From positions 1 through 26,050 of IMG/VR virus record IMGVR_UViG_3300037635_001808: a DNA stretch of 26,050 nt. One strand, 5' to 3'. The stretch is from a virus. A program made the position numbers and the translations under genes. The notes beneath the pieces are model-generated. The model was not told the DNA's origin, made no database searches, and saw nothing but the letters and a program-made list of their open reading frames with translations. Of the stretch, positions 14,220-22,711 are shown piece after piece (positions within the stretch are counted from its first letter, which is position 1; the number at the start of each line of letters is the position of its first letter).

Positions 14220-16583
14220 ATGGAACTATCTAAATTTCTTGACGTATACCTAGACTGCGGCAACACTTTGCTAGAGGGTAAGTTCACACAAGACCCTGCA
14301 CAAGCAGTTAAGATGTTTGCTGTTTTTGCCCCTAACGAATTACCTCCTACTGTTAGGACCGCAACTGCGGCGGCAGACGGACACACAGCTAACACTAATG
14401 CGGCCCAGGCTCAAGGCGATTCTTCTTTTGAGTACATTAACCAAAAAGGAGTGAAGATGATTGCGTATCGAGGTAAAACCTTTAACCCTAAAGGTCATTC
14501 TGCAAACCAAGCGGTTAAATTTACTGAACCTGAGTGGAATGCTGTTCTAGGGTATTATGACCAACAAAAAGGTAACATAGCCGCAGAAGACCCTGACATG
14601 AGGGACAAGGAGCAAGCGCAAACTCCTGTAATGGACCCAGCTGCTCCCGCCGCCGAGCAACCAGATTTCTTAAAACAGCTGTCCGAGGAGGCGACCCAAA
14701 AAGACCTCAAGGTATTAGAAGAAATGGGGTATACCGGACCAGATGTAACGAAATGGGCTCAAACTTTTAATGACCAAGCTAGAGGGTTAGGAACCGTTAC
14801 TAAAATGAGGAAAGCGTCTTTGGCTTTGCAAGGAAAAGAAAATGTATCTGTGGAAGAGACTGAAGCCGCTGCACAAAAGTTATCTCAGACAGCCATGAGA
14901 GCCATGGGTCTGGCGTACAAACTAAAAAATAAAATAATCACTCCAGACAAATTATCCCAGGAGGACGTAGATTTTCTCAAGTGCTTTAGATGTAGAAACA
15001 AAGGAACTGTACACGTACAAGGGGGAGATAAATGTGGAGGAGATATCGCAACCCTAGGAGCAACTATGGATACCGATGCAGGTAAAGCGTTTGGTATGCA
15101 GATAGGAACCAAGGATAGTCTTGTGGCGAAAGATTTGTGTAGGTTAACCAAGATTGAGGTTGACGGTAAGCCTTTAATCCTTAAAGGACGTTCCGCAGAC
15201 AGAGCTTCCGAAGATACATACCGAGCCATTGCTGGGGATATGAATGAGTACTCCTCCGACCTCGCCCAAGCCATCTTTGTTAAAAAAGATAAAAAGGCTG
15301 TTAAAAAAGTTATGGAGAGTATTGTTGCAGGTGTCGGAGATAAGTTGGACCTCAAACTATTTCTGGAAGTTGCTCAAGCACGGGCAGGAGGAAGTTTAGA
15401 AGATGTGGAGGTAATTAACTTTGTCGAAGAGGGGGCTAACGAGCTATTGGAGGAAGCAACCGCCGAGTTAGGAGAAACCCCAGACGAGAAAAGAGCTTTA
15501 GCATGGCTTCTATCAAAGCAAGTAAGTGGGTGGAAACCTATTGTAGAGCAGTTCCCGCCAGACTGTGAGTTTAGAAAGGTAGGCACGGAAGGTGCCGGTA
15601 TTCTGGGTGATGGCACTGTTTTAAATGCAGATGTTGAAGTGGCTTGCGCTGAAGGCAGCACTTTAGACAAAGTAGTAAACAAAAAGTTCGATGTGAAAGG
15701 AAACCGCGCCGCCCAATCTAAAAGCTTTGGTGACGTTGTCAGGATTAGCGTGAAAAATGGTTTTGGAGGAAAAACCATCGAGTTTGGAAAAAGAAGTTTC
15801 CTTAAACTTAGGGGGTCTGCGGATAGAGAGGCTGTAACTATAGCTCGTCAGAGCCACGCGGCTGCCCTCAGTGAGATTACCAGAAACCATGGCGTGGACC
15901 TTCCGGACGATTGGCTAGAGCAAGCCGATGAGTTTAGAGACCGAAGCACCCGTGAAGTGGATAGGATGATGGGAGCATTAGACAATATCTCCTCGGGTGC
16001 GTTGAAAGATTGGACTACGGACCAGATGTCTAAAGTACCTTTTAATGATTTGAAGAAACAAAAGGCTTTTTATGATAAATTAAAAGAGTACAAAAAAACT
16101 AAGGACCCTAAAGTAAAACTACGTCTTCGCGCTGAAAGTATAACTCAAATGACTCAGATGTATGCAGCTAAACATTCAAATGAACCCGGGTTTAGGTATA
16201 ACTGTGTGCTGGATGCTGCTGTTTGTGGAATGTCAACCGAAAGACAAATGTTCGCTCTTACTAACCCTGACGGGAACTCCATGATAGGAATGGAAACCGA
16301 CGCAGTCGGTCCTTCCCTGCTAAAGATATTATCGGGAGAAGCCGACATTAGAGTTCTTGGGAGCGGTACTAATTTTGTAAGCGAGGATGGAAAACTGCTT
16401 AGTAGACTGAGAATCGGACGTAAAGGAACCTCCGCTAACACCCATTATATTGTAGCCAAGGATGAGGTTACCTCTGGGCTAGAAAAGGCTCAATCTGTCG
16501 GTAACTCATCCATGAAAGCCGAAGACTTCGTTAGACATCTTCAGGAACTCATTCAGAGGATAGATGAAGTATCGACCGTCTAG
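14220..16583 (+). CDS. Large protein of unknown function, possibly virion-associated
   Basis: A 787-residue protein I do not recognise. Residues 44-70 and 118-147 are low-complexity linkers rich in Ala, Asp, Gln and Pro. Residues 150-240 are helical. A cysteine cluster KCFRC (255-258) with Cys272 and Cys307 could bind metal or form disulphides. Residues 465-530 form a beta-rich region with DVEV, KFDVKGN and VVRISVKNGFGGKTIEFGKR; the D...(x)SVK pattern is reminiscent of PD-(D/E)XK-like nuclease folds in some phage virion proteins, but this is weak. The C-terminal 200 residues are helical then beta. It sits alone between the tube gene and the strand switch, under a late-promoter-like motif, so it is probably made late and may be packaged or ejected. 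It is not the portal protein by sequence. Confidence 0.6.
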   Translation: MELSKFLDVYLDCGNTLLEGKFTQDPAQAVKMFAVFAPNELPPTVRTATAAADGHTANTNAAQAQGDSSFEYINQKGVKMIAYRGKTFNPKGHSANQAVKFTEPEWNAVLGYYDQQKGNIAAEDPDMRDKEQAQTPVMDPAAPAAEQPDFLKQLSEEATQKDLKVLEEMGYTGPDVTKWAQTFNDQARGLGTVTKMRKASLALQGKENVSVEETEAAAQKLSQTAMRAMGLAYKLKNKIITPDKLSQEDVDFLKCFRCRNKGTVHVQGGDKCGGDIATLGATMDTDAGKAFGMQIGTKDSLVAKDLCRLTKIEVDGKPLILKGRSADRASEDTYRAIAGDMNEYSSDLAQAIFVKKDKKAVKKVMESIVAGVGDKLDLKLFLEVAQARAGGSLEDVEVINFVEEGANELLEEATAELGETPDEKRALAWLLSKQVSGWKPIVEQFPPDCEFRKVGTEGAGILGDGTVLNADVEVACAEGSTLDKVVNKKFDVKGNRAAQSKSFGDVVRISVKNGFGGKTIEFGKRSFLKLRGSADREAVTIARQSHAAALSEITRNHGVDLPDDWLEQADEFRDRSTREVDRMMGALDNISSGALKDWTTDQMSKVPFNDLKKQKAFYDKLKEYKKTKDPKVKLRLRAESITQMTQMYAAKHSNEPGFRYNCVLDAAVCGMSTERQMFALTNPDGNSMIGMETDAVGPSLLKILSGEADIRVLGSGTNFVSEDGKLLSRLRIGRKGTSANTHYIVAKDEVTSGLEKAQSVGNSSMKAEDFVRHLQELIQRIDEVSTV

Positions 16584-17414: not shown

Positions 17415-17715
17415 GCAGGAGTTGAATGAGGTACTAAAGGACCGTAAGTGTAAAAACTTTTCGGTTCTTTACTACTCAACTTGGTGTAAGTGGTGCGACC
17501 GTATTCTTGAACGCGCCGAAGAATGGAAAAACGAAAAGGGTCACGAGACCGTTTACTTAGTAAACAGTTGGGATTTACCTGAGTCGTTTGCATCATTTTC
17601 AATTACATCATCTCCATCGCTAGTTCATCTCGTGAATAAGAGGGTTAAAGTGGACGTGGAGTATCCTAAGATTTACTCCTTCTTCTCTACTCCGTCTCCT
17701 CAAGAAACGACCTAA
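17386..17715 (+). CDS. Thioredoxin-like protein with a CxxC active site
   Basis: A 109-residue thioredoxin-fold protein. The active site is YYSTWCKWCDRI with Cys34 and Cys37, and SSPSLVHL (75-82) carries the cis-proline typical of thioredoxins. I chose the ATG at 17386 rather than the upstream in-frame one at 17341 because GGAGAGG stands directly before it and the N-terminus then matches the family. It overlaps the preceding gene by 29 bases. A phage thioredoxin or glutaredoxin could reduce the class II ribonucleotide reductase encoded at 24606, or act as a polymerase processivity factor as host thioredoxin does for T7; the first is the simpler reading. The last 29 bases overlap the late sigma gene on the opposite strand. 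Confidence 0.75.
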   Translation: MRSLTKLVTEQELNEVLKDRKCKNFSVLYYSTWCKWCDRILERAEEWKNEKGHETVYLVNSWDLPESFASFSITSSPSLVHLVNKRVKVDVEYPKIYSFFSTPSPQETT

Positions 17716-18055
17716 TCTTCTTGTCTTTATACTGTTGAATCTTTTCCTGATATTTCTTGTTTTTAGTATAAATAAGCTTCAGGTTATTTACTATAACAGT
17801 AGTGAAGTAGTTGAAAGCCGAACCTTTTTCACGGGTAAAGTTTTTAAGTACTTTCAAGGACAATACGAAACATTCTTGTTTAGCATCATCAAACTCCACT
17901 TTAAATTTAAAGGATATAAGGATGCTTGTAATTAATAAGTCTAGTTGCCCGATAAGTTCATCTTCATACTCCGAGGGATTTTCCAAGTAGTTAAAGATGG
18001 TTTCCTCAAACTTCTTATTATCAATATAGTGTTTCTTTTTTTTACACTTCGCCAT
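17687..18055 (-). CDS. 55: Late-transcription sigma factor, gp55-like
   Basis: A 122-residue protein on the minus strand that matches T4 gp55 in order: HYIDNKKFEETIFNYLENP matches the gp55 start around YVNNKELLQAIIDW; a middle helix pair, then FDDAKQECFVLSLKVLKNF and GSAFNYFTTVIVNNLKLIYT match the gp55 region with KQEMIADGIEASIKGLHNF and AYITQACFNAFVQRI, the sigma region 2 that binds RNA polymerase and the -10-like late promoter. KNKKYQEK follows, as in T4. It is shorter than T4 gp55 (185 residues); the last residues (SFLEETE) might be a remnant of the clamp-binding tail (SLDFL in T4). Presence of this factor fits the TATATAATA elements seen before virion genes. It faces the polymerase gene across a 15-base gap. 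Confidence 0.8.
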   Translation of the reverse strand: MAKCKKKKHYIDNKKFEETIFNYLENPSEYEDELIGQLDLLITSILISFKFKVEFDDAKQECFVLSLKVLKNFTREKGSAFNYFTTVIVNNLKLIYTKNKKYQEKIQQYKDKKIRSFLEETE

Positions 18056-18070
18056 AACCTATCATAGAAC

Positions 18071-19042
18071 ATGGACTTAGAAAAATTACTACAAAATTTC
18101 GACAAAGACGAAAAAACAAAAGATTATTCATCTACAGATGTTGGTGATGAGAAAATTGTTTTCATTACCACTTGTCAATATCGTGAGCGCGGGAGTCTAT
18201 ATGATTTCAACGACCATGAGTATGCGGCTGTTAAAACCCTTCTAGAGAAGACAGGCGTACCCGAGGGACACTATCAGTTCGTACCCGCGATTCGGGAACC
18301 CAACACCTCAGAGGACGACTTAACAACGGCAGACTATAACACCCATCGTCCATTCCTTTATGAGGACCTAGACCAGATTAAGCCAGAGCTTATTATCCCT
18401 CTAGGTAATGTAGCGATGAAGACTCTGCTGAAGAAGTCCGGCTTATTTAATAAGCGGGGTAAAGAGTTTGAGTATGAAGGTTGTCCTGTAGTACCGACCT
18501 ATAGCTCAGACCTCGTCTTCCTAGAGCCAAAGCTACGAAAGCTGTTTGTTCAGGATGTAGAGAATGCGTACAATAAATTCATCTTAGATAAGAATAAGTT
18601 TGACGGAACTGGGTATGTTCTATGCAAAACCATTAAGGAGTTCAATGAGCAAATGGACAACCTTAAAAATTATGACGTAGTTGGTGCAGACATTGAAACA
18701 ACTGGATTGGATTTCAAGAAAGATGTTATGTCAACTATTGCGTTTTCGTACGGAGAGAATCAAGCCTTTACCATACCTATTCATCATCGCGAAAGTCCAT
18801 TCGATGATAAAGACAAAGAAATCATTAGAGAGAGGCTCAGTGATTTGCTGGCAGATTCGAGTACTGAGAAAATTTTCCATAATTGCCAATTTGATTTAAA
18901 ATTTTTGATGACTTTTGGAATTACAAACTTTAATAATATTGGCGACACAAAAATTATGCACTCGCTACTCGATGAAAATCTTCCTCACGGCCTTATGGAT
19001 TTAGTGAAGGAGTACTTCCCTCAAGAATTGGAGAAATTTTAA
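18071..19042 (+). CDS. polA: Family A DNA polymerase, N-terminal part: UDG-like domain plus exonuclease motifs I and II
   Basis: A 323-residue protein forming the front part of a phage PolA. Residues about 27-165 resemble a family 4 uracil-DNA-glycosylase-like domain (KPELIIPLGNVAMKTLL at 104-120), but the catalytic N-terminal motif is not visible, so it is probably structural. Residues 180-323 are the 3'-5' exonuclease domain: exo I ADIETTGLD (Asp207, Glu209), exo II FHNCQFDLKFL (Asp275), then GDTKIMHSLLDENLPHGLMD. The protein stops at EYFPQELEKF, before exo III. The missing part of the domain starts the gene at 20194. The stop overlaps the ATG of glutamine synthetase (TAATG). The proofreading site is complete only if the two proteins assemble. 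Rhodothermus phage RM378 also encodes exonuclease and polymerase separately. Confidence 0.9.
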   Translation: MDLEKLLQNFDKDEKTKDYSSTDVGDEKIVFITTCQYRERGSLYDFNDHEYAAVKTLLEKTGVPEGHYQFVPAIREPNTSEDDLTTADYNTHRPFLYEDLDQIKPELIIPLGNVAMKTLLKKSGLFNKRGKEFEYEGCPVVPTYSSDLVFLEPKLRKLFVQDVENAYNKFILDKNKFDGTGYVLCKTIKEFNEQMDNLKNYDVVGADIETTGLDFKKDVMSTIAFSYGENQAFTIPIHHRESPFDDKDKEIIRERLSDLLADSSTEKIFHNCQFDLKFLMTFGITNFNNIGDTKIMHSLLDENLPHGLMDLVKEYFPQELEKF

Positions 19043-20028
19043 TGATTACTGTAGAATATATTTGGTTGGATGGGTCTGTTGATATGCCCCAACTACGTTC
19101 AAAGACGAGAGTCTTTTCTGAGAAACACGCTTTGGCTAAATTGCCTGAATGGTCTTTCGATGGTGGTAGCACCGGACAAGGAGATTTGGCAGACTCAGAC
19201 CGTAAGCTTAAGCCTGTGCGCTTATATAAGAACCCTTTTAGTGAGGGTAATTACATGGTACTGTGTGAGGTTATGAACCCAGACGGTACTCCCCATGAAT
19301 CTAATATGCGTAGCCTTTTGGCGGAACAGTTAGATGATGGTGATACTAGCATGTTGTTCGGGTTTGAGCAAGAGTATACTTTTGTAGACCCTATGATGCA
19401 ACCCCTTGTACCGGAAGACATTAAGCAGGGAGATTTCTACTGCGGTGTAGGTGCAGGTAATGTTATTGGTCGTTTGATTGCAGATGAGCATCTAGCAAAC
19501 TGCGATAAGGCAGGTATTACCTTATTCGGCAACAACGCAGAGGTAATGATTTCTCAATGGGAATATCAGACCAACGCCGCCGAAGCTCTTCAAGCCTCTG
19601 ACGACCTGTGGATGTCTCGGTACATCTTACAGAAAGGTAGCGAGAAATTCAATATGAGAATCTCGTACCATCCAAAGATTTACCCGACCTTAAATGGCGC
19701 TGGTTGCCATGTTAATGTGTCTACCGAAAAGACTCGTGAGAAAGGCGGTATTAAAGAAATCGAAAGTATGATGGACAAATTGAAAGAAGCTCACTTAGAA
19801 CATATCAACGTTTATGGTGCAGGTAATGACTTGCGTCTAACGGGTGAATGTGAGACTTCTAACTATGATGAGTTCTCTTGGGGCGTCGGAGACCGTGGCG
19901 TAAGTGTTCGCATCCCGTCGCACGTAAAGATTGATAGGTGTGGTTATTTCGAAGACCGTCGCCCAGCAGCTACCTGTGACCCTTACCTAGTAACCTCTCA
20001 GATGATGGAAACTCTAGTTAGATGTTAA
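19042..20028 (+). CDS. glnII: Glutamine synthetase type II (GSII, eukaryotic-type)
   Basis: A complete 328-residue GSII, which joins ammonia to glutamate using ATP. The N-terminal beta-grasp domain has EYIWLDG (5-11) and LPEWSFDGGSTGQ (34-46). The catalytic domain has FEQEYTF (Glu109, Glu111), the YCGVGAG loop (133-139), NNAEVMISQWEYQ (Glu167, Glu174), NGAGCHVN (His223), RLTGECETS (Arg265, Glu271), RIP (Arg290) and YFEDRRPAATCDPY (Glu304, Arg306, Arg307). All positions that bind metal, ATP, glutamate or ammonia in known GSII appear kept. GSII lacks the adenylylation control of bacterial GSI, so the enzyme should stay active when the host GS is shut off. It lies between two parts of the DNA polymerase and overlaps both neighbours by a few bases, so it is expressed with replication genes. 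Base composition looks like its neighbours, arguing against very recent arrival. Confidence 0.97.
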   Translation: MITVEYIWLDGSVDMPQLRSKTRVFSEKHALAKLPEWSFDGGSTGQGDLADSDRKLKPVRLYKNPFSEGNYMVLCEVMNPDGTPHESNMRSLLAEQLDDGDTSMLFGFEQEYTFVDPMMQPLVPEDIKQGDFYCGVGAGNVIGRLIADEHLANCDKAGITLFGNNAEVMISQWEYQTNAAEALQASDDLWMSRYILQKGSEKFNMRISYHPKIYPTLNGAGCHVNVSTEKTREKGGIKEIESMMDKLKEAHLEHINVYGAGNDLRLTGECETSNYDEFSWGVGDRGVSVRIPSHVKIDRCGYFEDRRPAATCDPYLVTSQMMETLVRC

Positions 20029-20210
20029 AACCTGGACTTCCCCCTCAATTATTAGATGAGGTAATTCGTGCTCTAAATGAGTATCAAGCTGCTATAATGA
20101 AAGCGGGGGAAGTAACCCAATCTAATTACAAATCTAACGTACACTACGTTAATATTATTTTCGAACTAAACCACATAATAAAAGAATTAAAAAATGCTAA
20201 CCGTAACTAA
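20022..20210 (+). CDS. 62-aa helical protein between glutamine synthetase and polymerase (hypothetical)
   Basis: A short frame starting in the last codons of glutamine synthetase (GATGTTAA) and ending 17 bases inside the polymerase gene. It reads MLKPGLPPQLLDEVIRALNE at the start and ends IIFELNHIIKELKNANRN, two likely helices around a polar middle. The tight overlaps on both sides suggest it is translated, possibly by coupling, and may simply link translation of the two enzymes. I do not recognise it. It could be a small regulator or partner of glutamine synthetase or a bridge between the split polymerase parts; both ideas are guesses from position. Confidence 0.55.
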   Translation: MLKPGLPPQLLDEVIRALNEYQAAIMKAGEVTQSNYKSNVHYVNIIFELNHIIKELKNANRN

Positions 20211-21708
20211 CGGAGGAGCCCATGACTGGGAAAACATGCCTCTGGATGAAATGGCGTTGGGAAACGCTATGGACGCGGACTTCACCTTACGCGCCCACAC
20301 CAATATGATTGGAGAGATGAATAGGAAGGGCGTAAACCATGTTTACGAAAAGCTTCTTAAAAAGATTCTCGTTGTAGCATCAGATGTGGAACACCGAGGT
20401 ATTTTGGTAGACAATAATTGCGTAGCCCGATTCGATGAGCTTCTCGCAAAAGAAATTGGAGAGCTAGAAACTAAGCTCTCTGAGCTATCAGTAATTGACG
20501 ATGTTAATCCTAGGTCGAATGCCGATATGGGACTCCTGCTCTTTACTAAAGAAGGTTTCGGGTTAAGAGCTTTAGAGTTTTCCAAGAAAACTAAAGCAGC
20601 GTCGATTACTGAAGCTCACTTACAGAAAGTGGCCGTGACTGCCACAGGGGATGCCAAAGAGTACATTGACCTTTTACTTAAATACAAAGGTCGAGTAAAA
20701 CAACATAAGACCTATGTTAAAGGTGTAGAAAAAGCCACTACATACAACGAAGATGGTAGGGTTTACTCTAGCTATAACTTCGGTAACGTGGTAACGGGTC
20801 GTCTAAGCTGCTCAACCTATTCTGTAGGTAAAGAACGTAAAGGTATTTCGTTCCACACGTTACCCCGCCCTGATGAGGATGACCCTGTCAATCTTCGTAG
20901 TATGATGACTGCGGATGATGATAAAGTGTTTGTGGCTGCTGACTTCTCTCAAGCAGAACTGCGAGTCCTCGCTCAGTGCTGTAAGGATAAGAACCTTATT
21001 GAAGCTTTTAACTCCGGACAGGACTTGCACAGCTTCACGGCGTCCCTTGTATTTGGCAAGAATGCTAAAGACGTAACAAAACAAGAAAGACAGATTGCTA
21101 AGAGCGTAAGCTTCCTCATTGTGTATGGAGGGGGTCCGAACAAACTCGCAGAACAGATAGGTCAGTCTGTAGGATATTGTAAGAATATTTTTAAAGCTTA
21201 TCAAGATTCTTTTCCAAAAGTTTTTAAGTGGATTAACTTTGTACATAAGTTTGTGAGGGAAAATGGATACGCAGTGAGCCTTTTTGGGCGCAGGAGACAT
21301 CTTCCAAATGTTAAGAGTCCCAATAAAAAATATCAGTACCGCGCTTTACGACAAGGCATGAACTTTGTTATTCAAAGCTCTGCCTCTGATTTAATGCTCC
21401 ACTCAATCCTTCGTCTGCAAAAATACCTGAAAGCCACAGACTTAGATGCGCAGATTCTTGCTACGGTCCACGACTCTGTTGAAGTGCAATGCTCAAGAAA
21501 AGACTTAAAGAAAGTTATTGAGCTTATGCGTTATGTGCTGGAAAGCACAGAAGATTTCAAAGAGTTGTATGGCTTGGACTTTGTGGTTCCTTTTGCTGTT
21601 GATGTTGAAGCAGGTTATTCCTTTGGGGATATGATTGATGCAGAATTCAGTAGCGAAGGACATCTGCTTAATGAAGCAGAAATTATAGATTATGTCGAAA
21701 CCAGCTAA
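20194..21708 (+). CDS. polA: Family A DNA polymerase, C-terminal part: exo III segment plus polymerase domain
   Basis: A 504-residue protein. The start NGGAHDWENMPLDEMALGNA (6-25) and DADFTLRAH (27-35) is the end of the exonuclease domain, with Asp27 at the exo III position; the usual Tyr four residues earlier is Gly23. The polymerase domain follows: thumb region, TGRLSCSTYS (201-210), motif A FVAADFSQAELRVLAQ (Asp250), motif B RQIAKSVSFLIVYGG (Arg299, Lys303, Phe307 equal to E. coli Phe762, Tyr311), and motif C ATVHDSVEVQ (His426, Asp427). All catalytic residues for nucleotide addition are present. Phe at the 762 position predicts discrimination against dideoxynucleotides. It starts within the 62-aa gene and its end overlaps gene 47 by 17 bases. 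It is the replicative polymerase of this phage in place of T4 gp43. Confidence 0.95.
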   Translation: MLTVTNGGAHDWENMPLDEMALGNAMDADFTLRAHTNMIGEMNRKGVNHVYEKLLKKILVVASDVEHRGILVDNNCVARFDELLAKEIGELETKLSELSVIDDVNPRSNADMGLLLFTKEGFGLRALEFSKKTKAASITEAHLQKVAVTATGDAKEYIDLLLKYKGRVKQHKTYVKGVEKATTYNEDGRVYSSYNFGNVVTGRLSCSTYSVGKERKGISFHTLPRPDEDDPVNLRSMMTADDDKVFVAADFSQAELRVLAQCCKDKNLIEAFNSGQDLHSFTASLVFGKNAKDVTKQERQIAKSVSFLIVYGGGPNKLAEQIGQSVGYCKNIFKAYQDSFPKVFKWINFVHKFVRENGYAVSLFGRRRHLPNVKSPNKKYQYRALRQGMNFVIQSSASDLMLHSILRLQKYLKATDLDAQILATVHDSVEVQCSRKDLKKVIELMRYVLESTEDFKELYGLDFVVPFAVDVEAGYSFGDMIDAEFSSEGHLLNEAEIIDYVETS

Positions 21709-22711
21709 AGTTGTTATCCTAACGGATTTGCATTTACGCGCAGATTATTTTCCAGGGTTCTTGGATAAACAAGTAGAGACCCTTCTGCACCTCACTAACA
21801 GGAAGCCTTGCTCACACGTCGTCATTAACGGGGACGTGTTTGAGCGTAGAAACCCCCGCAGCGAAGAGCTCCTGGCGTTTGGTTATTTGTTAGATAATAT
21901 TAAATGTAAAAATATTATTGTTAATAGAGGTAACCACGACACCCTCCGTAAAGACGGAACCTCAGACACCATCCTATCACTGTTCTCTGAGAAAGCTAGG
22001 ATTGTTAAGGACACTGAAACGATTAGAATTGGAGACGTAAACTTTGATTTTATTCCTCATTATGAAGATGAAGATAGAATCATTGCTGACCTAAAGAAAA
22101 CAAAGAATCCAGTGTTCGGACATTTTGGGTTTGACGGGTGTGTGTCTAATGGGACGTATGCTTATGAAGCCCGTGTGAAGAAGTGGCATCTCAGAGGGAA
22201 ACCGTTCGCTTTCCTCGGACATATTCATAAACCTAAAATCTACGATAACGTCGTAATCCTAGGAACGCAGTACTCTAATACTTTCGGAGAGGCAAACGCA
22301 CAGAAGTTTTCGCACGAATTAGTAATTAGAGACCAAGAAATAGAGCTTATTAAAAAGCCTATTGGTAAAGGCATTAAACATATTGTAGGAACTATTGATG
22401 AAATTCCTGCCCTCGCCAAAAAACACAAGTTCGAAGACTTTTACACCATCCTCAGAGTTAAGATGGATAAGCTGGATTCCTACACCGAGAAGAGATTGAA
22501 GGAAGAGATATTCGCAGAATACCCTATCCAAAGTTTGGAACTCGTGTTTGAGGATGTGCTTCCCAAGTTCGAATCTGGATACGTACCTAAAAATCGTATT
22601 TTTAGTTTGGATGACAAGGTAATAGACGAGTATATTGACGCCAGCGATACTGTGTTCAAAAAAGAAGAGTTGCTGAAAGGGTTATCGGAGATAAAAGATG
22701 CAGTTAAATAA
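21692..22711 (+). CDS. 47: Recombination endonuclease subunit, gp47 / SbcD / Mre11-like
   Basis: A 339-residue metallophosphoesterase equal in length to T4 gp47. The five motifs are visible: DLHLR (Asp12, His14), NGDVFERR (Asp48), NRGNHD (78-83), GHFGFDG and LGHIHKP. It forms the nuclease of the gp46/gp47 complex, which resects double-strand ends and degrades host DNA so that recombination-dependent replication can proceed. Its end overlaps gene 46 by 14 bases, so the two subunits are translated together. The N-terminus overlaps the polymerase end. Confidence 0.95.
   Translation: MSKPAKVVILTDLHLRADYFPGFLDKQVETLLHLTNRKPCSHVVINGDVFERRNPRSEELLAFGYLLDNIKCKNIIVNRGNHDTLRKDGTSDTILSLFSEKARIVKDTETIRIGDVNFDFIPHYEDEDRIIADLKKTKNPVFGHFGFDGCVSNGTYAYEARVKKWHLRGKPFAFLGHIHKPKIYDNVVILGTQYSNTFGEANAQKFSHELVIRDQEIELIKKPIGKGIKHIVGTIDEIPALAKKHKFEDFYTILRVKMDKLDSYTEKRLKEEIFAEYPIQSLELVFEDVLPKFESGYVPKNRIFSLDDKVIDEYIDASDTVFKKEELLKGLSEIKDAVK

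Follow-up and report, generated by a model that had tools for sequence, protein, structure and literature searches.

A phage family A DNA polymerase encoded in two pieces, cut within its exonuclease domain around a slot of changing gene content

Genes at the split polymerase locus

The IMG/VR record IMGVR_UViG_3300037635_001808 represents uncultured phage DNA, and its positions 1-26,050 (the window, meaning the whole 26,050-nucleotide stretch that we analyzed) contain a family A DNA polymerase (PolA) that is encoded by two genes rather than one. A 323-amino-acid (aa) protein carries most of the exonuclease domain and a 504-aa protein carries the polymerase domain, and between them lie a gene for glutamine synthetase type II (GSII) and a 62-aa open reading frame (ORF). 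An earlier reading of the window, made from the sequence only, had described these four ORFs and their overlapping ends, and our analysis confirms both. The features of the locus, each with its basis, are as follows.

18071..19042, plus strand: exonuclease (exo) half of the family A polymerase, 323 aa (Pfam PF01612 and PF03167; fold match; invariant residues)
18095-18592, plus strand: uracil-DNA glycosylase (UDG)-like domain of the exo half, residues about 9-174 (PF03167, fold match)
18593-19018, plus strand: 3'-5' exonuclease domain of the exo half, residues about 175-316 (PF01612, Klenow match)
18689-18697, plus strand: Exo I D207/E209 of the exo half (invariant residues)
18893-18895, plus strand: Exo II D275 of the exo half (invariant residue)
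19040..19044, plus strand: TAATG junction, where the exo stop overlaps the next start (sequence, junction table over relatives, Shine-Dalgarno count)
19042..20028, plus strand: first cargo of the slot, GSII, 328 aa (Pfam, profile match, dN/dS)
20022..20210, plus strand: second cargo of the slot, the 62-aa ORF without known family (ORF, Pfam and PHROGs evidence; orthologues in relatives)
20194..21708, plus strand: polymerase (pol) half, 504 aa, with Exo III segment, thumb, palm and fingers (PF00476, Klenow fold, invariant residues)
20272-20274, plus strand: Exo III D27 of the pol half (invariant residue)
within 20194..21708, plus strand: motif A DFSQAELR (D250), motif B R299/K303/F307/Y311 and motif C H426-D427 of the pol half (invariant residues)

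GSII overlaps the 62-aa ORF by 7 nt, and the last codons of the 62-aa ORF lie over the pol start in an overlap of 17 nt. Just 5' of the TAATG junction stands a GGAG (in TTGGAG, within the C-terminal codons of exo). Pfam recognized DNA_pol_A_exo1 (2e-19) and UDG (2e-5, with PF03167 barely above the cut-off) in the 323-aa protein, Gln-synt_C and Gln-synt_N in the 328-aa protein, and DNA_pol_A (3e-82) in the 504-aa protein. The 62-aa ORF had no family in PHROGs or Pfam, and its orthologues are present in the related contigs L003, L007, L011, L012 and L016-L018.

The cut lies inside the exonuclease domain

We folded each half separately with AlphaFold2 (mean predicted local distance difference test score, pLDDT, 84.3 and 87.4) and aligned the models to solved structures. 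Residues 175-316 of the exo half matched Klenow residues 324-469 (Z 13.4), and residues 1-481 of the pol half matched Klenow residues 470-928 (Z 37.6 over 407 residues), so the two halves tile the Klenow fragment without gap or overlap. When the seam was aligned with the intact relatives L215, L216 and L217 (26-31% identity), in which UDG, exonuclease and polymerase domains form one UDG-exo-pol protein, no motif was missing. Together, these alignments and predicted folds show a polymerase cut at Klenow residue 469/470 with nothing lost, as the sequence-only reading had proposed.

That reading had also assigned the Exo I and Exo II residues to the 323-aa protein and the Exo III aspartate and polymerase domain to the 504-aa protein, which our alignments bear out. 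D207, E209 and D275 are invariant among 44 aligned exo halves and D27 is invariant in 39/39 pol halves, so that all four DEDD carboxylates are kept, the Exo I Asp and Glu and the Exo II Asp on one chain and the Exo III Asp on the other. The motif A, B and C residues of the pol half are likewise invariant in 39 sequences. For pairs with computable dS, the ratio of nonsynonymous to synonymous substitution rates (dN/dS) was 0.02-0.17, placing both halves under purifying selection. Modeled alone, the exo half has low confidence over its last 30 residues (pLDDT 49-62), as would be the case if these residues depended on the other half. The two halves would presumably associate, with a metal site made of three carboxylates from the exo chain and one from the pol chain.

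Family A is characterized by exonuclease and polymerase on one chain, whereas here they occupy two ORFs in every contig that holds both halves. Given that Taq-like family A members also lack an active exonuclease, we regard the split as an architectural departure and not as exclusion from family A. As a separate observation, the pol half seems to have a Phe (F307) where E. coli has Phe762, and the literature associates this residue type with high-fidelity or cautious incorporation.

Two features had escaped the sequence-only reading, namely, a UDG-like domain that occupies the N-terminal half of the 323-aa protein and the absence of the catalytic Tyr of DEDDy exonucleases. Residues 9-170 of the exo-half model match UdgX/family 4 UDG (Z 18.5) and have the UDG fold. 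UDG domains of similar phage polymerases are suspected to be non-catalytic, and by analogy this one (18095-18592) may be a non-catalytic remnant.

The same split recurs across relatives

Scanning IMG/VR with single proteins and with profiles yielded 60 distinct contigs that hold both halves. They come from many IMG/VR records, and the polymerase is split at the same site in 60/60. Since the same split recurs in contigs of separate records, it is neither chance nor assembly error. Intact homologues are only distant (at most 31% identity), have the UDG-exo-pol architecture and lie outside the clade. The flanking order is kept among relatives: sigma-like gene, exo, slot, pol, sbcD, sbcC and nrdA. 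A search of 16 records, which are fragments, gave no second PolA.

The sequence-only reading had suspected that the split is older than the insertion of GSII, and the relatives agree with this: 30 of the 60 are split without GSII, and 11 of these have an empty gap. The best-supported account of these sequences is that the split is ancestral to the clade and came first and that GSII is a passenger.

A second split, after residue 157 in the thumb, divides the pol half in one subclade (L036, L038, L039, L041 and near copies). The resulting ORFs of 157 and 371 aa overlap at an ATGA, nothing is inserted between them, and the polymerase is thus in three pieces.

L036 3661-5246; L038 8001-9586; L041 8001-9586; also L039: pol half with second split

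The slot holds changing cargo

Among the 60 contigs, the slot between exo and pol holds GSII in 30, other cargo in 19 and nothing in 11. The two halves abut directly in L038, L089, L111, L116, L118, L125, L135, L194, L203, L204 and L209, of which L203, L204 and L209 are the deepest split relatives. These empty slots are seamless TAATG junctions that join exo to pol with both ORFs whole. Empty and filled loci have the same exo end (..ELE-F stop) and the same pol start (ATGYTWAC), so cargo is placed precisely between TA and ATG (the TA-ATG seam). The exo/pol gap ranges from -4 to 3735 nt with an interquartile range (IQR) of 741, while six neighboring junctions have IQRs of 0-31 nt (pol-sbcD, 0); given that only the exo/pol junction varies in length, we conclude that it is a slot and not a sign of general looseness. 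A GG-rich Shine-Dalgarno-like motif (GGAG, GAGG, GGAGG or AGGAG) precedes the first ATG after exo in 29/46 and pol in 16/46, counts that are consistent with translational coupling.

GSII had been put forward as a special partner of the split polymerase; it proved to be one of several cargos. The others include ThyX (PF02511, L033), a PDDEXK_11 nuclease (PF20472, 9e-29) in L034 and L124 with resembling ORFs in L126, L127, L129 and L174, a saccharopine-dehydrogenase-like protein (PF16653/PF03435, L113), ORFs resembling the 62-aa protein, an 80-110-aa ORF family and others. Cargos also occur in combination: GSII with DUF3310 in L036; a 72-81-aa ORF with GSII, ThyX and the PDDEXK_11 nuclease in L124; and GSII with ThyX and a 659-aa ORF in L031. 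That 659-aa ORF (L031 6017-7996) matches no Pfam or PHROG family. The saccharopine-dehydrogenase-like protein, an unusual metabolic cargo, is 351-357 aa long in L113, L115 and L119. Weak Pfam matches of small slot ORFs were not believed.

On an unrooted tree of 46 tips (exo+pol, IQ-TREE, LG+G4), the minimum number of changes was 26 for the full cargo state, 11 for GSII presence and 7 for the empty state. Sister contigs differ accordingly in content: L038 is empty, L039 has GSII and L041 an 80-aa ORF; L135 is empty and L139 has GSII; and L034 has the nuclease, L108 ThyX and L031 GSII plus ThyX. The sequence-only reading had expected that GSII could hardly be lost unless the polymerase was rejoined or rearranged. 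This expectation fails, as GSII changed state at least 11 times and the empty TAATG seams leave the ORFs whole.

The GSII in the window matches yeast glutamine synthetase over its full length (profile E 1e-116), which places it in type II, and it keeps the motifs EQEY, NAEV, QWEYQ, NGAGCH and EDRRPA. With these catalytic motifs and its full-length match to a solved GSII, it is predicted to be an enzyme, and its dN/dS is 0.05-0.14 (pairs with computable dS). In the GSII tree, the slot sequences group in a single clade (support 100/98), separate from those of cells and huge phages, as would suit a gene that entered the lineage once and was afterwards lost and exchanged. Although L036 and L039/L064 are backbone neighbors, their GSIIs are not sisters (approximately unbiased test, p 0.03), which hints at exchange, weakly because of long branches. 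No GSII was found elsewhere in 10 GSII-less records, which are fragments.

A probable two-subunit polymerase around a cargo slot

The interpretation that we prefer, with a probability of about 0.77, is a two-subunit PolA (three-subunit in one subclade) whose exonuclease metal site spans both proteins and whose genes flank a cargo slot coupled to them in translation. The replicative polymerase would thus consist of two polypeptides, one with the UDG-like domain and most of the exonuclease domain and the other with the Exo III segment and the polymerase. The replication operon (exo, cargo, pol, sbcD, sbcC) would be translationally coupled, and its TA-ATG seam would tolerate insertions, such that a promoterless ORF entering there would break no gene and would be expressed together with the polymerase. 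Homologous recombination between relatives that infect the same cell, acting through the conserved 3' end of exo and 5' end of pol and perhaps aided by slot nucleases, is the most likely route by which cargo would be gained, lost or swapped. The presumed benefit of GSII is more glutamine for making nucleotides during infection.

Several observations weigh against this interpretation. Four residues ahead of the Exo III Asp, where DEDDy exonucleases have their Tyr (Klenow Y497), stands an invariant Gly, which sets the split exonuclease outside the subclass that this Tyr defines; the residue one before that Gly is Leu, Ile, Phe or Tyr, with Tyr in some relatives only, and intact outgroups keep the DEDDy Tyr. 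With this residue lost, proofreading may be weak or altered. GSII distances correlate with backbone distances (Mantel r 0.86) and the trees are largely congruent, so much of the pattern may reflect vertical inheritance and loss. Cargo labels not scanned with Pfam, which are most of them, rest on sequence resemblance, and the association of the two halves is something that we infer.

If a two-subunit PolA is nonetheless the correct interpretation, the phage would offer a natural family A polymerase with an exonuclease metal site that two proteins appear to share. The division would fall at a defined point in the best-studied polymerase fold, so that proofreading could be tested by mixing subunits. 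The locus also points to a pre-existing seam as the entry point of auxiliary metabolic genes into a phage replication operon, where GSII and ThyX could be traded without harm to essential genes because the seam already exists. Surveys of ocean viruses that treat polA as one gene will miscount or truncate this lineage. A bolder version, which we consider doubtful, is that the polymerase is kept permanently split as a dedicated cargo bay, where metabolic or defense-type genes are swapped at a co-translated, replication-timed position and where the exonuclease subunit, completed in trans, lets the subunit ratio tune proofreading.

Alternative explanations

It is also possible, although unlikely, that a homing endonuclease made the split, in the manner proposed for the genes in pieces of Aeh1 (nrdA/mobE) and of Aeromonas phages (gene 43), and that slot nucleases of the PDDEXK_11 type still drive cargo exchange. 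The PD-(D/E)XK proteins and resembling ORFs in the slots listed above are in keeping with such an origin, as are known precedents that were split and invaded likewise (PMC2988022) and the finding that nucleases mark exchange boundaries in phages (PMC10448857). However, the slot of the window and of most relatives holds no nuclease, no HNH, GIY-YIG or LAGLIDADG gene was recognized in the slot, and PDDEXK_11 is a nuclease family with only a putative homing role.

Alternatively, the exo half could be a separate repair enzyme that no longer associates with the pol half, which would work without proofreading. Loss of the catalytic Tyr fits this idea, and a separable subunit would permit such a state. 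Yet every aligned pol half keeps the Exo III Asp, which is missing from the exo half; the exo half by itself seems to have an incomplete C-terminus; and both genes always stand in order, adjoining the slot. We therefore consider this explanation improbable.

We judge it very unlikely that GSII, or an element carrying it, inserted into an intact polA, split it and was retained since its removal would break the polymerase. GSII is the commonest cargo and the slot GSIIs form a single clade, which suits such a history, but the relatives split at the same site without GSII, including 11 with no insert and both ORFs whole, and the empty slots of the deepest split relatives contradict it already unless all empty loci are secondary losses from a GSII-bearing ancestor; loss of GSII, moreover, leaves a working gene pair. 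That a single chain is made after all, through an assembly artefact, intron, intein or programmed frameshift, is scarcely credible: the ORFs of empty loci overlap by 1 nt in the -1 frame, so that rare frameshifting is conceivable there, but the split recurs in separate records, Rfam found no intron in the window and Pfam no intein domains in the gap proteins (as the sequence-only reading had held), and no frameshift could cross the unrelated, intact genes of 0.2-3.7 kb that occupy the slot.

Neighboring genes

Two genes border the split polymerase and its slot.

17687..18055, minus strand: small divergent conserved gene, left border of the syntenic block, outside the slot (weak sigma-70 region 2, synteny)
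21692..22711, plus strand: SbcD-like nuclease gene, right border (17-nt overlap with pol; invariant junction)

The left-hand gene encodes 122 aa and always adjoins the exo half; its match to sigma-70 region 2 (E 0.0075) is below the cut-off, and it is possibly a middle or late sigma-like factor. Farther upstream, a 787-aa protein (window 14220-16583) sits between a tail tube gene and a PD-(D/E)XK gene. It is 25-43% identical in most relatives, whereas its neighbors are 80-95% identical, marking a hypervariable gene with no function assigned.

Comparison with known systems

Split phage polymerases are already known. In the open-licence literature, we found no description of a PolA split inside its exonuclease domain with exchangeable metabolic cargo, in line with the sequence-only reading, which knew of none; PMC4360716 and PMC6302109 make no mention of split polymerases. 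In Aeromonas phages 25 and 44RR, the replicative polymerase is encoded in two pieces, genes 43A and 43B, and the gene 43 products of phage 25 co-purify and have polymerase activity (PMC2988022). As at our locus, the material in the gap differs by phage (a seg endonuclease versus an untranslated spacer). In contrast, gene 43 is a family B polymerase, its gap holds a homing endonuclease or non-coding DNA and no metabolic enzymes, and the case comprises two phages, whereas here the slot has about 20 contents. Aeh1 likewise keeps an essential enzyme, ribonucleotide reductase, working in pieces around an inserted gene (nrdA-a/mobE/nrdA-b; PMC2988022), although the enzyme is a different one and the inserted gene encodes an HNH homing endonuclease believed to have caused the split.

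The marine OM43 phages MEP401 and MEP402 also divide a family A polymerase between two ORFs, which flank a small ORF of no known function (PMC10580990). Their cut, however, lies in the palm/fingers (gp13 ends at pol-profile position 208 and gp15 aligns from 299), and neither a UDG-like domain nor metabolic cargo is reported (PMC10580990). The sequence-only reading had cited Rhodothermus phage RM378 as a PolA precedent, and RM378 does have exonuclease and polymerase in separate genes, along with T4-type structural genes. The precedent does not hold, as these genes belong to family B (PF03104, PF00136), which rules out RM378 as an ancestor or relative; they are also about 57 kb apart and do not match our exo/pol profiles.

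For the cargo, the GSIIs of huge phages (LR756501, LR756502, LR745206) are also phage encoded and 45-47% identical over their full length. They differ in branching with cellular GSIIs and not with the slot GSIIs and in not lying beside a polymerase half; on inspection, no split polymerase was found near these loci. For the polymerase itself, the same three domains occur in the same order in gp205 of Pseudomonas phage PaBG (PMC7412058), in SPO1-like phages and in MW202455.1, and such UDG-exo-pol polymerases are about 26-31% identical to the split halves where aligned. MW202455.1, in contrast, is one continuous gene, and PaBG gp205 is described as one protein (PMC7412058).

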